DNA of 64,000 bases from positions 1 to 64,000 of IMG/VR virus record IMGVR_UViG_3300025093_000013; one strand, written 5' to 3'. The position numbers and the translations under genes were made by a program. Below the pieces are notes generated by a model. That model saw only the letters and a program-made list of their open reading frames with translations. It was not told the origin of the DNA and ran no database searches. This DNA comes from a virus. Positions 41,728-47,103 of the stretch are shown in pieces; position 1 is the stretch's first letter, and every line of letters begins with the position of its first letter.

Positions 41728-41966
41728 CGGTCATTCCTCCAATCTTGATCGTTGTATTGGTCTTCTTCTTCATCCTCGTCGCAAGGAGCGAATGCCTCAT
41801 CTTGGCACTCCTGGCACAATCCAGAGATAGTATACTCCTTAGCAGAGATATCATCTTTGAACCACCCAGCATGGCACCCACACACCACGCACTGCTGGTT
41901 AGCCATAGCGGTAGAGCGAGTGGGCTGGAGGGTGTGGAGGTAAGCTTCCATTTCGGGGCTCTTCAT
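41724..41966 (-). CDS. Small zinc-ribbon protein
   Basis: 80 residues. Cys pairs CVVC and CQEC about 28 apart with an additional CDED tail; acidic C-terminus. Immediately behind a leaderless-type promoter. Confidence 0.65.
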   Translation of the reverse strand: MKSPEMEAYLHTLQPTRSTAMANQQCVVCGCHAGWFKDDISAKEYTISGLCQECQDEAFAPCDEDEEEDQYNDQDWRNDR

Positions 41967-41972
41967 GCGTGT

Positions 41973-42000
41973 ATAGTAGCACCTGGGGACTAGGTTTCAA
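41973..42000 (-). promoter_or_regulatory. Early promoter of the zinc-ribbon gene
   Basis: Minus strand TTGAAA (42000-41995), 16 bases, TACTAT (41978-41973), six bases to ATG 41966. Confidence 0.7.
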
Positions 42001-42020
42001 GCGGAATCTAAGGAAAGTGG

Positions 42021-42087
42021 GCGTCCTAAGTCTAGGTCTGATAAGGGTTTACGGCGATCGGGGCCGCCGCCCGCCAAAATGGCAGGG
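42021..42087 (-). repeat. Stem-loop cassette repeat, copy A
   Basis: Contains GCGTCCTAAGTC, TAAGGGTTTACGGCG and the small palindrome GCCAAAATGGC. Lies between the sigma gene and the -35 of the next promoter (20 bases away). Confidence 0.7.
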
Positions 42088-42106
42088 CTAGTTTATTGAT
42101 ATAAAC

Positions 42107-42598
42107 TCAGGCGAGAGATTGAATAGCGGCCTTGTGCCAGTTGTGAATAGACTGGCCCGAGACATTGTAGTCCTCTGCGATAGAAGCGTAGGACTCGCCC
42201 TCGATAGTGTGACGCAGAACGATATCACGGTCACGGTCGGAAAGGGAATCGAGCATGGAGAGAGTCTCCTTGTCCTCCGTGTAGGAAGGGTGCCAAGCGT
42301 CGGAGTTATCGTCCTCTTTGATAGCGTCCAGGGACATCTGGATACCGTCACCCTTGAGCGCCTTCTTGGCACAGGCACGGTCAATCTCCATCATGCGCCA
42401 CTTGATGCGCTGAATCATGTAGGTCGAGAACTTCATGCCCGCATCGGGAAGGTACGCCTGCTCGCCCTTGTGCAGAGCCAGGAAAGCCTCGGACACCAGA
42501 TCGTCACGATCATAGTGAGCAGAGATGTGAGGCTTCTCCGCGTACAGGTTGGCGTACTTGTTGGCGGCGGGGATGAAGTCGCTGATGGTGTTGCTCAT
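42107..42598 (-). CDS. Sigma-70 family RNA polymerase sigma factor
   Basis: 163 residues from ATG at 42598, which follows a TATCAT -10 box by seven bases (the upstream ATG at 42607 would lie inside the promoter). Region 2: DRDDLVSEAFLALHKG and MKFSTYMIQRIKWRMME; region 4: LSDRDRDIVLRHTIEGESYASIAEDY...SIHNWHKAA, a helix-turn-helix. Likely directs host polymerase to later phage genes. Confidence 0.85.
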   Translation of the reverse strand: MSNTISDFIPAANKYANLYAEKPHISAHYDRDDLVSEAFLALHKGEQAYLPDAGMKFSTYMIQRIKWRMMEIDRACAKKALKGDGIQMSLDAIKEDDNSDAWHPSYTEDKETLSMLDSLSDRDRDIVLRHTIEGESYASIAEDYNVSGQSIHNWHKAAIQSLA

Positions 42599-42605
42599 GT
42601 GACTC

Positions 42606-42634
42606 ATGATAGTCTATTATCGACCACCCGTCAA
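42606..42634 (-). promoter_or_regulatory. Early promoter of the sigma gene
   Basis: Minus strand TTGACG (42634-42629), 17 bases, TATCAT (42611-42606), seven bases to ATG 42598. Confidence 0.6.
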
Positions 42635-42656
42635 CCATTCCTTGAGAGAAATCTCT

Positions 42657-42719
42657 GTCCTAAGTGCCTGGGGGATAAGGACTTACGGCGGGGCGGGCTG
42701 CCCCCGCCAAAATGGCAGG
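42657..42719 (-). repeat. Stem-loop cassette repeat, copy B
   Basis: GTCCTAAGTG, ATAAGGACTTACGGCGG, GGGCTGCCCC stem and GCCAAAATGGCAGG. 22 bases from the -35 of the sigma promoter. Confidence 0.75.
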
Positions 42720-42756
42720 CCCTAACCCCTTGCGGGGCCAGGACTTAGAGCCAGAC

Positions 42757-43545
42757 TCAGGCAGCCGCGAGGATACCCTCGGCAGCGTTCCACAGGTTGA
42801 GGTTGACGCGACTCAGCGCGTCGATGTTGGTGAGTTCCCGAGCCTGACGCTTCTGGCCCTCACCCTTGAAACCCCCACGGATGGTGTTCTCCTGCACACG
42901 GTTGAACACGGTCCACAGGTCGGAACCAATGTCCTCCTGCCTGCGAGGGTTGAGAAGCTCCCGAGAGTCGATCTCGGAGGCAGCACCCCAGCGAGCAACC
43001 TTGCCCGCGTGAGCCATCTGGAACTGCTCCTCATCGTCGAGGTGCAGGTTCGCCATGCTGTCGATGTTGTCCGCGATGTTGGGGACAAGGTTGGACATGG
43101 ACTGGATCGCATCGGACACGCTGTCCATGGACAGGTTCATGTGACGCTGCGTGAAGCTGCCCAGATCAAGGGACTGGATAACCAGACCATTCGAGCAGAC
43201 CAGAGCAAACAGGCCAGCGGCCAGCTTGAGCGAGGACGAGCCATCGCTGGAGTTAGTGACGAGGATCTCGGGGAAGATATCCTGCGAAGGGTTGCGAGGG
43301 TCCGCGATGCGAAGGCTAAGATCCTTGCGCTGGAACCCGAGGGTGTGCTTCTTGTTGTCCGCCGAACGCTTGTAGCTCTTGGGCTGGAGCGCACGGGTGA
43401 CGCCCCATCCAAGCGCGTCGAACTGCTCGACAATGCTGGAGGAAGGGACGAAGCTGTAACGATCCGACATGCGGTCGCAGGGCTTGGAGGCGAAGACGGA
43501 AGGAGCGAGCTTCGCGATCTCGCTGTTGTCCATGAAGGTAACCAT
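42757..43545 (-). CDS. DUF932 (phage/plasmid-like) protein
   Basis: 262 residues from ATG 43545. SDRYSFVPSSSIVEQFDALG, EILVTNSSDGSSSLKLAAG and LFALVCSNGLV match DUF932, found in many phages and plasmids. Role unknown; its early promoter and position beside the sigma factor suggest a take-over function. Confidence 0.85.
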   Translation of the reverse strand: MVTFMDNSEIAKLAPSVFASKPCDRMSDRYSFVPSSSIVEQFDALGWGVTRALQPKSYKRSADNKKHTLGFQRKDLSLRIADPRNPSQDIFPEILVTNSSDGSSSLKLAAGLFALVCSNGLVIQSLDLGSFTQRHMNLSMDSVSDAIQSMSNLVPNIADNIDSMANLHLDDEEQFQMAHAGKVARWGAASEIDSRELLNPRRQEDIGSDLWTVFNRVQENTIRGGFKGEGQKRQARELTNIDALSRVNLNLWNAAEGILAAA

Positions 43546-43551
43546 GCGTGT

Positions 43552-43579
43552 ATAATAGCGTGCCACACTTAGAGATCAA
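43552..43579 (-). promoter_or_regulatory. Early promoter of the DUF932 gene
   Basis: Minus strand TTGATC (43579-43574), 16 bases, TATTAT (43557-43552), six bases to ATG 43545. Confidence 0.65.
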
Positions 43580-43600
43580 CAACAAAAGTGCGAAAGTTAG

Positions 43601-43660
43601 CGTCCTAAGTCGTTGGTACATAAGGACTTACGGCGGCGGGGGCTGCCGCCGAAATGGGGC
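43601..43660 (-). repeat. Stem-loop cassette repeat, copy C
   Basis: CGTCCTAAGTCGTTGGTACATAA-type half followed by GGACTTACGGCGG and GGGCTGCC; the last palindrome is degenerate (GAAATGGGG). 21 bases from the -35 of the DUF932 promoter. Confidence 0.75.
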
Positions 43661-43679
43661 ATCCTATCGGAAAAGTTAG

Positions 43680-43730
43680 AAAAAAACCCCCGAGGATGCC
43701 TCCCCGAGGGCTGCCCATTTCCCGATGGGC
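43680..43730 (-). terminator. Probable leftward terminator
   Basis: On the minus strand a GC-rich hairpin region (GCCCAT/ATGGGC at 43713-43730 and GAGG/CCTC at 43692-43702) is followed by seven T (43686-43680). It ends the 43781 gene. The exact stem is not certain because the G/C tracts allow several pairings. Confidence 0.5.
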
Positions 43731-43780
43731 CACTCGCTTTCTTTCAACTCGGTCGGTTAGCTACCCTCCCGAGCGCATCG

Positions 43781-44014
43781 TCATGCAGATTTAGCCATCG
43801 GCGCGAGGCCGTAGATGCCAGTCCGATTCCAGACCTTGACCGCGTGGTCACGGGTGACTCCAGAGTTGAGGAACTCCCCAGTACGCTGGTTGACGATGGA
43901 AAAGGTGGTGATGCCAGCACGCTGAGTGCGAACCATGCAGTAGTTGCTGTTGCAGTAGCCAGCGACGGGAACGAAGGTCGTGCGACCGTTGGTGTAGCGA
44001 GAGTTGATCTTCAT
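43781..44014 (-). CDS. Small protein, unknown
   Basis: 77 residues from ATG 44014. Beta-rich with YCNSNYCMVRTQRAG and TFSIVNQRTGEFLNSG, somewhat like a small DNA-binding AP2/integrase-arm type fold, but this is weak. First 12 bases of the gene and the promoter match the 37284 gene. Confidence 0.6.
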   Translation of the reverse strand: MKINSRYTNGRTTFVPVAGYCNSNYCMVRTQRAGITTFSIVNQRTGEFLNSGVTRDHAVKVWNRTGIYGLAPMAKSA

Positions 44015-44020
44015 GCTTCT

Positions 44021-44049
44021 ATAGTAGTTTCGAGTGTCGGAAGTTTCAA
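44021..44049 (-). promoter_or_regulatory. Early promoter of the 44014 gene
   Basis: Minus strand TTGAAA (44049-44044), 17 bases, TACTAT (44026-44021), six bases to ATG 44014. The -35 overlaps the end of the upstream gene. Confidence 0.7.
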
Positions 44050-44207
44050 GCGTCCATTGCGTGCTTGTGCTGCTGAATGATATCCCACTCAAGCTCGATA
44101 GCGTCAGCACAGGACTCGCAGAGGAGCGAGTTGCCGAACGGAGAGCCGAGGGCATACTGGGGAAACTGATCCCCGCAAGCGTCACACGCGATGGTGATGT
44201 CTTCCAT
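44046..44207 (-). CDS. 53-residue zinc-ribbon protein
   Basis: Cys pairs CDAC and CESC about 20 apart, acidic helix ADAIELEWDIIQQ. Likely one zinc site. Behind its own early promoter. Unknown function. Confidence 0.6.
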   Translation of the reverse strand: MEDITIACDACGDQFPQYALGSPFGNSLLCESCADAIELEWDIIQQHKHAMDA

Positions 44208-44213
44208 GTGTGT

Positions 44214-44241
44214 ATAGTAGTCTATCGGGCCACGAAAGCAA
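44214..44241 (-). promoter_or_regulatory. Early promoter of the 44207 gene
   Basis: Minus strand TTGCTT (44241-44236), 16 bases, TACTAT (44219-44214), six bases to ATG 44207. Confidence 0.6.
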
Positions 44242-44263
44242 GGGAGAATGTCGAGAAAGTGGG

Positions 44264-44328
44264 GCGCGTAAACCCTTGCAGCATAAGGACTTAGGGCGGG
44301 GGCGGCTGCCCCCTGCCAAAATGGCAGG
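44264..44328 (-). repeat. Stem-loop cassette repeat, copy D
   Basis: GCGCGTAAACCCTTG variant of the left half, then ATAAGGACTTAGGGCGG, GGGCGGCTGCCCCC and CTGCCAAAATGGCAG. 22 bases from the next -35. Confidence 0.8.
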
Positions 44329-44490
44329 TTAGGCTTCTTCTTCCTCACGATAAATATCATACATGATATCGAACGCAGTATCCAAGAGATAAAGGTTGAT
44401 ATCTTGTTCAGCCATAGTTTCTTCAAGAAGACTACTATCTTCGTAGTCAGCCATCCACGCAGTCAGTCTATCTTTGAGTTCTCTCTTCAT
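44329..44490 (-). CDS. 53-residue acidic helical protein
   Basis: Starts at ATG 44490 with AGGTGA upstream, coupled to the gp88-like gene. KRELKDRLTAWMADYEDS and a C-terminal YREEEEA. Its stop abuts repeat copy D. Unknown. Confidence 0.5.
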   Translation of the reverse strand: MKRELKDRLTAWMADYEDSSLLEETMAEQDINLYLLDTAFDIMYDIYREEEEA

Positions 44491-44498
44491 GTTATCAC

Positions 44499-45149
44499 CT
44501 AGTGGGACAGGAACTTCACGGTCATAGTAGATTGCCAGCAGGCACCACAAGTACCACAACTCTCAGTCTTTCCAGTCTGCTCAGGACAAGTGAAAGACTT
44601 ACCCTCGAAAGACTCATCCGCAGCATAACGAATGCCCGACATACTTTCTTTGTTGCGAGACCAGCGAATAACACAACGCTCAGGGTAGGATGCATTCAGG
44701 CGTTGAATACGCTTGCCGATATCATCCTCACGGGCAGTATAACCCCAGATGAGAAGACCATCATACTTGCACAGCATCTCATCCCAGAAGGTTACATAGT
44801 CCGTTGAGAAGAAGTCTCCGAGGACATGGAGACGAATAGCAATCTTGCCATGCTTTGCAATCAGCGTGTCGATCTCATGCTCCAATCGACGAACAAATGC
44901 GCTATAGTCAGCGACAGAATAGCGAGCAGCGAAAGGCATATTGTTTCCATAGCAATCGTCCCAATGGTGGCAGGAACGCGGACAAGTATCGCGTTCGGTT
45001 AGAGTGAGAGAAAAGATAGGGGCACCTGCCCACGCAGTCTTTTTAATACGGCGACCAAGTTTTTTATTGTTGCCACCCGACTTGAGCATAAACACATGAT
45101 TGTCGGGAACGGGCTTGATCGACTTCTGGTAGCGAGTGCTTACTAGCAT
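44499..45149 (-). CDS. GP88-like cysteine-rich phage protein
   Basis: 216 residues. ERDTCPRSCHHWDDCYGNNM holds three Cys in a cluster and the C-terminus has TCPEQTGKTESCGTCGACW, four more; HVLGDFFS and WGYTARE in between. This matches the phage gp88 family, whose Cys clusters suggest a metal or Fe-S site. Function unknown. Confidence 0.75.
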   Translation of the reverse strand: MLVSTRYQKSIKPVPDNHVFMLKSGGNNKKLGRRIKKTAWAGAPIFSLTLTERDTCPRSCHHWDDCYGNNMPFAARYSVADYSAFVRRLEHEIDTLIAKHGKIAIRLHVLGDFFSTDYVTFWDEMLCKYDGLLIWGYTAREDDIGKRIQRLNASYPERCVIRWSRNKESMSGIRYAADESFEGKSFTCPEQTGKTESCGTCGACWQSTMTVKFLSH

Positions 45150-45155
45150 TCCTGT

Positions 45156-45183
45156 ATACTAGCACGGTCGGCCAAGATTGCAA
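45156..45183 (-). promoter_or_regulatory. Early promoter of the gp88-like gene
   Basis: Minus strand TTGCAA (45183-45178), 16 bases, TAGTAT (45161-45156), six bases to ATG 45149. Confidence 0.6.
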
Positions 45184-45193
45184 GCAAAATCTA

Positions 45194-45259
45194 GCGTCCT
45201 AAGTCGTTGCTACATAAGGACTTAGGGCGGGGGCGGCGGCCCCCTGCCATTATGGCAGG
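45194..45259 (-). repeat. Stem-loop cassette repeat, copy E
   Basis: GCGTCCTAAGTCGTTG, ATAAGGACTTAGGGCGG, GGGCGGCGGCCCC and CCTGCCATTATGGCAGG. Ten bases from the next -35, the only copy off the usual spacing. Confidence 0.8.
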
Positions 45260-45260
45260 A

Positions 45261-45473
45261 TCACCTCACAACCTCATCCATAACATAAATCTCCTCATCC
45301 CATCCATCATGCCAACAAGGATAGTCTGCGTGATTATCAACTTCCCAATCCTTATAGCTCTCTTCGATATAGGCTTTGGCATACCTGATAGCGTCCTGCT
45401 GGTCCTTGAACAGACCAAGGAGACGCTTGCCTTCGTGTTGCACTTCACGCCAAAGACAATAAACCTTATCCAT
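45261..45473 (-). CDS. Small acidic protein, unknown
   Basis: 70 residues from ATG 45473 (GGAGAG six bases upstream). LFKDQQDAIRYAKAYIEESY and DYPCWHDGWDEEIYVMDE. Shares one base with the upstream stop. Unknown. Confidence 0.55.
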   Translation of the reverse strand: MDKVYCLWREVQHEGKRLLGLFKDQQDAIRYAKAYIEESYKDWEVDNHADYPCWHDGWDEEIYVMDEVVR

Positions 45474-45667
45474 CAAAACTCTCCAATGTAGTGGCCGACA
45501 CGCCAAATTAGATCTTGCACCATATCCTCCACAACATATGATGGCTCATCACCATAACTTAGTTTGCTACGGATCTGCTTGAGTTCTTCAAAGGTGCGAT
45601 TGAGCATATCAAGTGCTTCTTCAAGTTCTTCTTGATGAAGCATATCAAGCGACTTTTCATCCATCAT
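45473..45667 (-). CDS. Small helical protein
   Basis: 64 residues from ATG 45667, preceded by GAGGTTGG. Acidic coiled-coil (LHQEELEEALDMLNRTFEEL). Unknown function. Confidence 0.55.
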   Translation of the reverse strand: MMDEKSLDMLHQEELEEALDMLNRTFEELKQIRSKLSYGDEPSYVVEDMVQDLIWRVGHYIGEF

Positions 45668-45797
45668 ATTTCCAACCTCTACAGGCGTTCTTGTTCTCTG
45701 CGCGTTTCTTACTGGTGATCTTATGGGCTCGACGGGCGAACTCCATATTGCGAAGGTGATTCCTACGCTTGGCAAGGTTCTTATCGTGCTGGTCCAT
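45657..45797 (-). CDS. 46-residue basic protein
   Basis: Arg/Lys/His/Asn-rich (NLAKRRNHLRNMEFARRAHK). Could bind nucleic acid. ATG lies eight bases after a TACTAT box with TTTACA at -35 inside the endolysin gene. Confidence 0.5.
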   Translation of the reverse strand: MDQHDKNLAKRRNHLRNMEFARRAHKITSKKRAENKNACRGWKYDG

Positions 45798-45801
45798 GGT
45801 A

Positions 45802-46236
45802 TTAGATAGTAGACCGAAACTTGGCAGTGTAAAACTTTACATTCTTGATCCAGTGCTTATTGAGTCCAGTCGGGTCGTTATCAGCACCCACGGGACAATA
45901 ACGCTTGCCAAGGAAAGTAATAAAGTCTCCCTTGCTACCAGCCTTGACCCAGCGATCATAGTTCTTCTGGACAGTGGCAGCACACCACCCAGCTTGGTTA
46001 CGGTATCCAGGCTTGCAACGCTTGTGGATGATACCGTACTGGTACTTCTTGCCATTCTCTGCATACCTAATGGCTGCAACAATAGGGGCAAGTTTAGTGC
46101 GACACTCAGGACGGATATTCACATTGATAGCATCCTGATATAGAGCAGCGTTAGCCTTGCCGTCCTTAGTCTCGATTGCAGAGTACCCATCGGCAAGGAC
46201 AGGGGCACACAGGAGGAGTGCAAGGATAAACTTCAT
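45802..46236 (-). CDS. Secreted lysozyme-like endolysin
   Basis: 144 residues from ATG 46236 (GGAG eight bases upstream). Signal peptide KFILALLLCAPVLADG; then IVAAIRYAENGKKYQYGI, with a catalytic-Glu context typical of the lysozyme/transglycosylase fold, and AATVQKNYDRW, GDFITFLGKRYCPVGADN. Exported by the host Sec system to cut peptidoglycan. It lies among apparently early genes, unusual for a lysin. Confidence 0.7.
   Translation of the reverse strand: MKFILALLLCAPVLADGYSAIETKDGKANAALYQDAINVNIRPECRTKLAPIVAAIRYAENGKKYQYGIIHKRCKPGYRNQAGWCAATVQKNYDRWVKAGSKGDFITFLGKRYCPVGADNDPTGLNKHWIKNVKFYTAKFRSTI
45806..45833 (-). promoter_or_regulatory. Early-type promoter within the lysin gene end
   Basis: Minus strand TTTACA (45833-45828), 16 bases, TACTAT (45811-45806), eight bases to ATG 45797. 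Confidence 0.5.
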
Positions 46237-46328
46237 CGCCAAAGCTCCCAGTCGATGTAACCAGAGAAGAAGAGAGCTTCCTCGCCCTCTTGCTCGTTCA
46301 TCTCGTCTTCGTACTCTTCAAGGTCCAT
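46233..46328 (-). CDS. 31-residue acidic peptide
   Basis: MDLEEYEDEMNEQEGEEALF, then FSGYIDWELWR. Directly behind an early promoter; overlaps the lysin start by four bases and could set its translation. Confidence 0.5.
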   Translation of the reverse strand: MDLEEYEDEMNEQEGEEALFFSGYIDWELWR

Positions 46329-46334
46329 GTGTGT

Positions 46335-46362
46335 ATAGTAGCACAGTCTGGCTATGGTGCAA
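46335..46362 (-). promoter_or_regulatory. Early promoter of the acidic peptide and lysin
   Basis: Minus strand TTGCAC (46362-46357), 16 bases, TACTAT (46340-46335), six bases to ATG 46328. Confidence 0.65.
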
Positions 46363-46383
46363 GACTTTATGGGTAGAAAGTGT

Positions 46384-46449
46384 GGCGCGTAAACCCTTGC
46401 TATATAAGGACTTAGGGCAGCGGCGGCAGCCCCTGCCACAATGGCAGGG
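46384..46449 (-). repeat. Stem-loop cassette repeat, copy F
   Basis: GCGCGTAAACCCTTG, ATAAGGACTTAGGGC, GGCGGCAGCCCC and CCTGCCACAATGGCAGG. 21 bases from the next -35. Confidence 0.8.
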
Positions 46450-46500
46450 GTGAGCGGTTGTGGATCAATCTAGTTCACCACGCGCCCTCACCCCCTATAT

Positions 46501-46743
46501 TCACTGCGTCGAGAGGTGGGCTTCCAAGTGACCCAGACGCTTGCCATTGGGCTTGGTAGGCATCAGCCTACGGACAGCCTTATAGGCATCGAGGGCTTGA
46601 TTCCACTCGTCCCACTCGACGGCAGGGTTAGTGTAGGCCGCACGGAAGTTGCGACCCAGTTCCTCGGACATGGCCTGAAGCCTAGCCTCAGTGTAGGTGT
46701 ATTGATCTTCCATAGAGAACAGAGCTTTGAACTTGCGCCACAT
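46501..46743 (-). CDS. Small helical protein, unknown
   Basis: 80 residues from ATG 46743 (TGATATG junction with the upstream gene; ATG 46713 is an alternative). TEARLQAMSEELGRNFRAAY and a basic C-terminus with HLEAHLS. Unknown. Confidence 0.55.
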   Translation of the reverse strand: MWRKFKALFSMEDQYTYTEARLQAMSEELGRNFRAAYTNPAVEWDEWNQALDAYKAVRRLMPTKPNGKRLGHLEAHLSTQ

Positions 46744-46744
46744 A

Positions 46745-46903
46745 TCAGAAGGAGTAGCCTCCGTCATCAGCAGGACCGTAGGCGCTCTCCCACCAGTCAG
46801 CGTCAGAGGCTTCGTAGTAATACTCGTCACACTCGATCTGCTCCTCCCACGAAGGGTCGAAGTTGTCGGGGAGGTCGGAGGTGTAGTCAGGGGTGCTTTC
46901 CAT
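46745..46903 (-). CDS. 52-residue acidic Trp/Tyr-rich protein
   Basis: Many Asp, Glu and aromatics (ECDEYYYEASDADWWES); could mimic DNA. First gene of the leftward array, immediately behind an early promoter. Confidence 0.55.
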   Translation of the reverse strand: MESTPDYTSDLPDNFDPSWEEQIECDEYYYEASDADWWESAYGPADDGGYSF

Positions 46904-46909
46904 GCCCCT

Positions 46910-46938
46910 ATAGTAGCCTGCACCCCTTCCCCCGTCAA
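46910..46938 (-). promoter_or_regulatory. Early promoter of the leftward array's first gene
   Basis: Minus strand TTGACG (46938-46933), 17 bases, TACTAT (46915-46910), six bases to ATG 46903. Confidence 0.7.
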
Positions 46939-46959
46939 CCTAAAACCGTGCGGAAAAAG

Positions 46960-47003
46960 GCGCGTTTACGGGTCCCATACACGGGCTCCGCCCGCATATA
47001 TGG
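46960..47003 (-). repeat. Degenerate stem-loop cassette repeat, copy G
   Basis: GCGCGTTTACGGGTCCCATA and GGGCTCCGCCCGC keep the left end and GC-rich core but lack the last palindrome. It sits 21 bases from the -35, as do the intact copies. Confidence 0.5.
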
Positions 47004-47025
47004 AACATCATGTCTTACATATCAA

Positions 47026-47079
47026 GGGACTCCTAAAAACTTAGGGACTCCTACAATTATAAAAAAACAGGGACTCCTA
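47026..47079 (+). repeat. Three direct repeats GGGACTCCTA before the virion operon
   Basis: Copies at 47026-47035, 47044-47053 and 47070-47079, in AT-rich sequence 25-80 bases upstream of ATG 47104. Starts are 18 and 26 bases apart. Candidate operator or activator sites for the rightward structural genes. Confidence 0.6.
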
Positions 47080-47103
47080 AATAATTCGGAGCTATATAAG
47101 AGT

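Follow-up and report, generated by a model that had tools for sequence, protein, structure and literature searches.

Intergenic elements in a leftward block of small genes

The window, by which we mean the whole stretch of DNA analyzed, corresponds to positions 1–64,000 of a virus record 112 kb long (IMGVR_UViG_3300025093_000013). The phage encodes a terminase of the T4 type, with just 34–36% identity to its best database matches, together with an SbcC-like protein, a ribonucleotide reductase, and a DnaB-like helicase. A repeated intergenic element is found in a leftward block of small genes, including those for a sigma factor, a DUF932 protein, and a GP88-like protein. The first-pass annotation reported seven copies (A–G), and six of these (A–F) were recovered both by searching for repeats and with a position weight matrix for which about 0–0.7 hits per genome are expected in shuffles. 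"Copy G" was rejected as an element; it was missed by the matrix, and on the minus strand its sequence forms a terminator-like hairpin with T5 after it. Rfam, applied to the window at the gathering score, returned four tRNAs only and no match to the element. The features of the block are as follows:

41995..42000, minus strand: -35 (TTGAAA) after element A, 26 bp from the dyad; leaderless ATG at 41966
42020..42087, minus strand: element A, with TGCCA/TGGCA palindrome, GC core, and weak promoter-side dyad (42027–42051)
42107..42598, minus strand: sigma factor gene, the unit between elements B and A
42629..42634, minus strand: -35 (TTGACG) after element B, 26 bp from the dyad
42655..42749, minus strand: element B, with degenerate left dyad (42723–42747), palindrome, core, and dyad (42661–42685)
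42757..43545, minus strand: DUF932 gene, the unit between elements C and B
43574..43579, minus strand: -35 (TTGATC) after element C, 26 bp from the dyad
43600..43667, minus strand: element C, with core and dyad (43606–43630); palindrome degenerate
43680..43714, minus strand: classical intrinsic terminator adjoining element C
44236..44241, minus strand: -35 (TTGCTT) after element D, 27 bp from the dyad; leaderless ATG at 44207
44262..44330, minus strand: element D, with palindrome, core, and dyad (44269–44293)
44499..45149, minus strand: GP88-like gene, after element E
45178..45183, minus strand: -35 (TTGCAA) after element E, 16 bp from the dyad, one turn nearer
45194..45261, minus strand: element E, with palindrome, core, and dyad (45200–45224)
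46357..46362, minus strand: -35 (TTGCAC) after element F, 27 bp from the dyad; leaderless ATG at 46328
46384..46450, minus strand: element F, with palindrome, core, and dyad (46390–46414)
about 46958..47003, minus strand: "copy G", no element; terminator-like hairpin, then T5

A CCTGCCA/TGGCAGG palindrome had been claimed for every copy and is present in five of the six, but C differs. The fixed spacing between element and promoter proposed in the same annotation is real and tighter than claimed, with 26, 26, 26, 27, and 27 bp separating the end of the dyad from the -35 in A, B, C, D, and F, respectively. Copy E, described as nearer its promoter, is indeed so, and its 16-bp distance is shorter by 10–11 bp, or one helical turn. 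Most genes of the array appear leaderless, with a -10 of the TACTAT type ending 6 bases before the ATG (41964–46930; examples at 44205–44220, 43543–43558, and 46326–46341), so that the transcript would start at or adjoining the start codon. Direct repeats of GGGACTCCTA are found at the upstream end of the array (47024–47090) and are kept in a second locus (L126:7010–7135).

Architecture and distribution of the element family

Relatives were gathered by a pattern scan and a DUF932 search. Copies of the element, which the first-pass annotation had suggested seeking in relatives, are present in many related phage contigs; a 29-bp weight matrix, which gave almost no matches in shuffled genomes, located 912 elements in 280 viral loci. 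In its full form, the element comprises two 25-bp dyads of consensus TAARYSNTT-N7-AASNRYTTA, and the 28 bp between them include a GC-rich core. The dyads are 53 bp apart from start to start, equivalent to five helical turns, giving a compound site of 78 bp. This start-to-start distance is 53 bp in 493 elements and 52 bp in 49, and newer scans returned the 53-bp spacing again in 200 cases. A minor class (31 cases, in new loci L415 and later) departs from the 53-bp rule, with dyads 46–48 bp apart and therefore about half a turn out of phase. In the family to which the window belongs (group I), the promoter-side dyad and core are kept and the TGCCA/TGGCA palindrome replaces the other dyad; element B of the window possesses both the palindrome and a second, degenerate dyad. 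Near many elements of the other family (group II), a sigma54-like motif, TTGGCAC-N5-TTGC, occurs on the promoter side at a distance of about 10 bp; it is oriented toward the element, opposite to the genes (L074:6880–6895, L110:12638–12653, L087:5452–5467).

The two families correspond to two phage groups, group I (G000–G005) and group II, the latter consisting of large phages that carry rIIA and have another terminase; the groups have few, weak protein matches in common. In all 17 records examined (16–244 kb), the elements are confined to one block per genome, typically 4–20 kb of small genes with same-strand promoters. The computed span of 35 kb in G013 is an exception inflated by a lone, probably spurious match inside a 3.1-kb ORF. 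Where both neighboring genes were called, 263 of 269 elements lie between codirectional genes, six between divergent genes, and none between convergent genes. A family with a ribosomal protein L7/L12 C-terminal domain occurs in about 35 element-bearing loci (e.g., L352:586–960). Searches of isolate phages and plasmids gave no convincing match to the element, and no match to it was found in the literature. The bacterial genome collection yielded 23 matching stretches, mostly single hairpins, with true elements in three short contigs (L130, L140, and L151). These are public MAG contigs binned as Micavibrio and Cytophagales; since they encode the same proteins as viral contigs, they look like phage contigs in MAG bins, probably reflecting phage contamination of the bins, and a host-derived repeat was rejected. 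Mycobacteriophage stoperators and start-associated sequences are likewise repeated intergenic sites in phage genomes; these protein sites are short and single, whereas the element described here is compound, spans 78 bp, is restricted to one block, and is in phase with promoters.

Base pairing and helical phasing

Promoter early stem-loop (PeSL) cassettes of T4-type phages were reportedly described by Arbiol et al. 2010 and Comeau et al. 2014 (see PMC4503421). The T4-type PeSL is a repeated intergenic unit with an early-type promoter, linked to the shuffling of small genes between related phages. The present element resembles it in being a repeated intergenic unit with an adjoining early-type sigma70 promoter and an apparent association with small-gene shuffling; it differs in its unrelated sequence, in having no conserved stem-loop or terminator signature, and in its helix-phased dyads, which appear to be double-stranded. 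A PeSL-like cassette, in which the element would supply the 3' end of the upstream gene's transcript and terminate or insulate that gene, is consistent with the inverted repeats and with their location between genes and before a promoter. The TGCCA/TGGCA palindrome of group I also favors it, since this helix alone is 96% paired; it hardly varies, and the changes that preserve pairing, few in number, give U-G (read in the gene sense) or C-G.

The pairing data argue against such a cassette. The inverted repeat seen as a stem in the first-pass annotation exists, but its base pairing is not conserved, and no covariation was found, an outcome that the annotation had itself named as refuting its reading. 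Among 404 oriented elements, the position pairs with the strongest mutual information included no complementary arm pair from either hairpin model. At variable positions of the local-hairpin arms, pairing is rarer than expected under independence (z down to -8.6). For an alignment of 40 sequences, the pairing of the real local hairpins was equaled or exceeded in 497 of 500 shuffles; RNAalifold predicted zero pairs on this alignment. The group I alignment of dyad and palindrome was also below shuffled expectation, with 498 of 500 shuffles at least as high. U-tracts follow 6.7% of elements and 4.5% of control stretches, which is no excess, and the real intrinsic terminator beside element C shows that the element itself is not the terminator. 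With arms that are under-paired and do not covary, and with U-tracts at control levels, the dyads are best read as double-stranded sites, and we regard an RNA cassette of the PeSL type as highly improbable. In group II arms (e.g., L206, L208, and L237), the variable positions are under-paired relative to chance, as if perfect palindromes were avoided; avoidance of long palindromes may lie behind this shortage.

A sigma70-type promoter was identified by pattern within 100 bp after just 71 of 180 elements (17 records). In large phages, the distances from the element to the next -35 peak at 20, 30–32, 40–42, 51–53, and 61–64 bp, with a best period of 10.5–10.75 bp. Individual genomes illustrate the series, with 21, 30, 30, 30, 31, 41, 42, 43, and 64 bp in G009 and 20, 22, 30, 30, 30, 31, 41, 41, 42, 42, and 64 bp in G014. 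Promoters related by descent inflate raw phasing counts. Single-linkage deduplication on promoter sequence was uninformative, since nearly all promoters fell together (n = 19, p = 0.14), and promoters were grouped instead by the gene that follows them; with one promoter per downstream gene family, phasing was evident (n = 66, R = 0.43, p ~ 5e-6). The corresponding values were n = 39 and R = 0.81 for five large genomes, and R = 0.15–0.16 for control distances. Out-of-sample promoters unrelated to the first set gave n = 56, R = 0.35, and p = 1e-3 with the same phase (9.8 vs. 10.0 bp), the best period being just broadly defined. In group I, the dyad lies 26–27 bp or exactly 16 bp from the -35, the near cases being element E and its ortholog. 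The phases of groups I and II are about half a turn apart; as a guess, because the dyad arms are ~1.5 turns apart, either of them might be the one facing the polymerase.

Sites for class I activators, such as CRP, are palindromes upstream of a sigma70 -35 at distances that differ by whole helical turns. The palindromic element, upstream of the -35 and with whole-turn distance steps to its promoter, is similar, its binding by protein being a prediction here; it differs from CRP sites in sequence, in its pair of dyads spaced 53 bp around a GC core, and in its location in one phage gene block. The helical phasing points to a double-stranded site for a protein that would act with RNA polymerase. 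CGATA is present in the spacer of 74% of element-adjoining promoters, compared with 25% of other array promoters.

Phasing by itself does not give the sign of regulation, and looping repression would produce the same phasing as activation. The element might thus be an operator for a repressor or silencer, host- or phage-made, or a roadblock to upstream read-through, with phasing reflecting looping or direct exclusion, and its placement between codirectional but never convergent units would suit this role. Yet the sites lie about 65–110 bp upstream of the start rather than over the promoter, an AT-rich, UP-like tract occurs only on the promoter side of the element, between site and -35, and a pure roadblock needs no helical phasing. 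Repression or roadblocking therefore seems rather unlikely to us. Mainly from the distance and the UP-like tract, we infer that activation is favored.

Exchange of units and a putative binding protein

The earlier proposal of a unit that spreads with its gene and insulates it can be divided: the modular cassette is borne out, whereas the stem-loop and insulation part is unsupported. Element, promoter, and gene form units that are permuted between relatives. In L126, the sigma factor, DUF932, GP88, and two-small-gene units stand in a different order from that in the window, and the homologous blocks mostly end inside elements. In recent exchanges elsewhere, the homology on one side reaches the element or enters it and the genes on the other side differ, and L240 has the order X-element-Y where L247 has X-element-gene-element-Y. 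The switch points occur at several positions (left spacer, core, or right half), so homologous recombination at the repeats fits better than a site-specific recombinase. An early comparison of one-sided homologies had suggested a crossover in the right half; this was discarded when a larger oriented set and individual events revealed breakpoints across the element. The foot of REP/BIME elements, which are mobilized by RAYT, was also rejected: GTAG/GGAG at the stem was found in just 2% of elements.

Phages can carry clusters of integron attC sites, also without an integrase (PMC9892861), which makes attC a serious rival. The dyads would then be recombinase core sites for excising and inserting promoter-gene cassettes. 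Like attC, the elements form same-direction modular arrays and are imperfect palindromes of two core-site pairs (PMC9892861); the two inverted-repeat core sites with 7-bp spacers flank a palindromic core, and exchange breakpoints fall in elements. They differ from attC in lacking conserved folding, an associated integrase, and R boxes: the R-box pair (RYYYAAC / GTTRRRY) was found in 0 of 404 elements, and no tyrosine recombinase (PF00589) scored above cut-off in 20 records. An integron-like site also sits poorly with breakpoints at several positions and leaves the promoter phasing unexplained, and we judge it improbable.

We consider it reasonably probable, on sequence evidence, that the element is a double-stranded DNA site for a protein, probably made by the host, that is phased to the promoter, controls the units of the block, and serves as an exchange point. 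A putative protein would bind the palindromic dyads and act with RNA polymerase at the downstream promoter, as class I activators do, and this joint action would require the site to lie whole helical turns from the -35. The site would mark and control separately promoted units of a block of small genes, the expression of which is probably early. With similar copies between units, the elements would also serve as recombination points for unit exchange. Weighing against this reading are the half-turn difference in phase between groups I and II, the minority of elements followed by a recognized promoter, the inflation of raw counts by descent, and the broad out-of-sample period.

The profiles of 162 group II protein families revealed no DNA-binding regulator clearly common to group I. 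On these profiles, a phage-encoded common regulator was rejected, the sole regulator-type match to group I being a weak sigma-like one in G000 (2e-5), far from the array. That unrelated phage groups share the site with no common regulator found points to a host protein, and since promoters of the array type are read by the host polymerase, the host would be the simplest source. In many group II phages, the array is flanked on the opposite strand by two paired genes, one for a sigma-like factor and one for a D5-like transcriptional regulator (phrog_323) (L206:180–1666, G012:139701–141003, G018:77156–78458); these are candidate regulators and are absent or very weak in group I. A dual role, in which a host recombinase-like protein docks on the four-arm site, drives the promoter, and moves cassettes between unrelated phages, strikes us as a very long shot; if true, it would amount to an integron-like cassette economy of phages needing no integrase of their own.

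The elements constitute a cis-regulatory family in uncultured large phages, common to lineages with almost no shared proteins. They would represent a regulatory repeat that doubles as a gene-shuffling joint without being an RNA stem-loop, and their helical phasing yields a specific prediction that is cheaply testable. If the binding protein is host-made, the element would offer a handle on the hosts of these phages. In metagenomic phage genomes, sequence alone could pinpoint the gene block presumed to be early and to serve host takeover.
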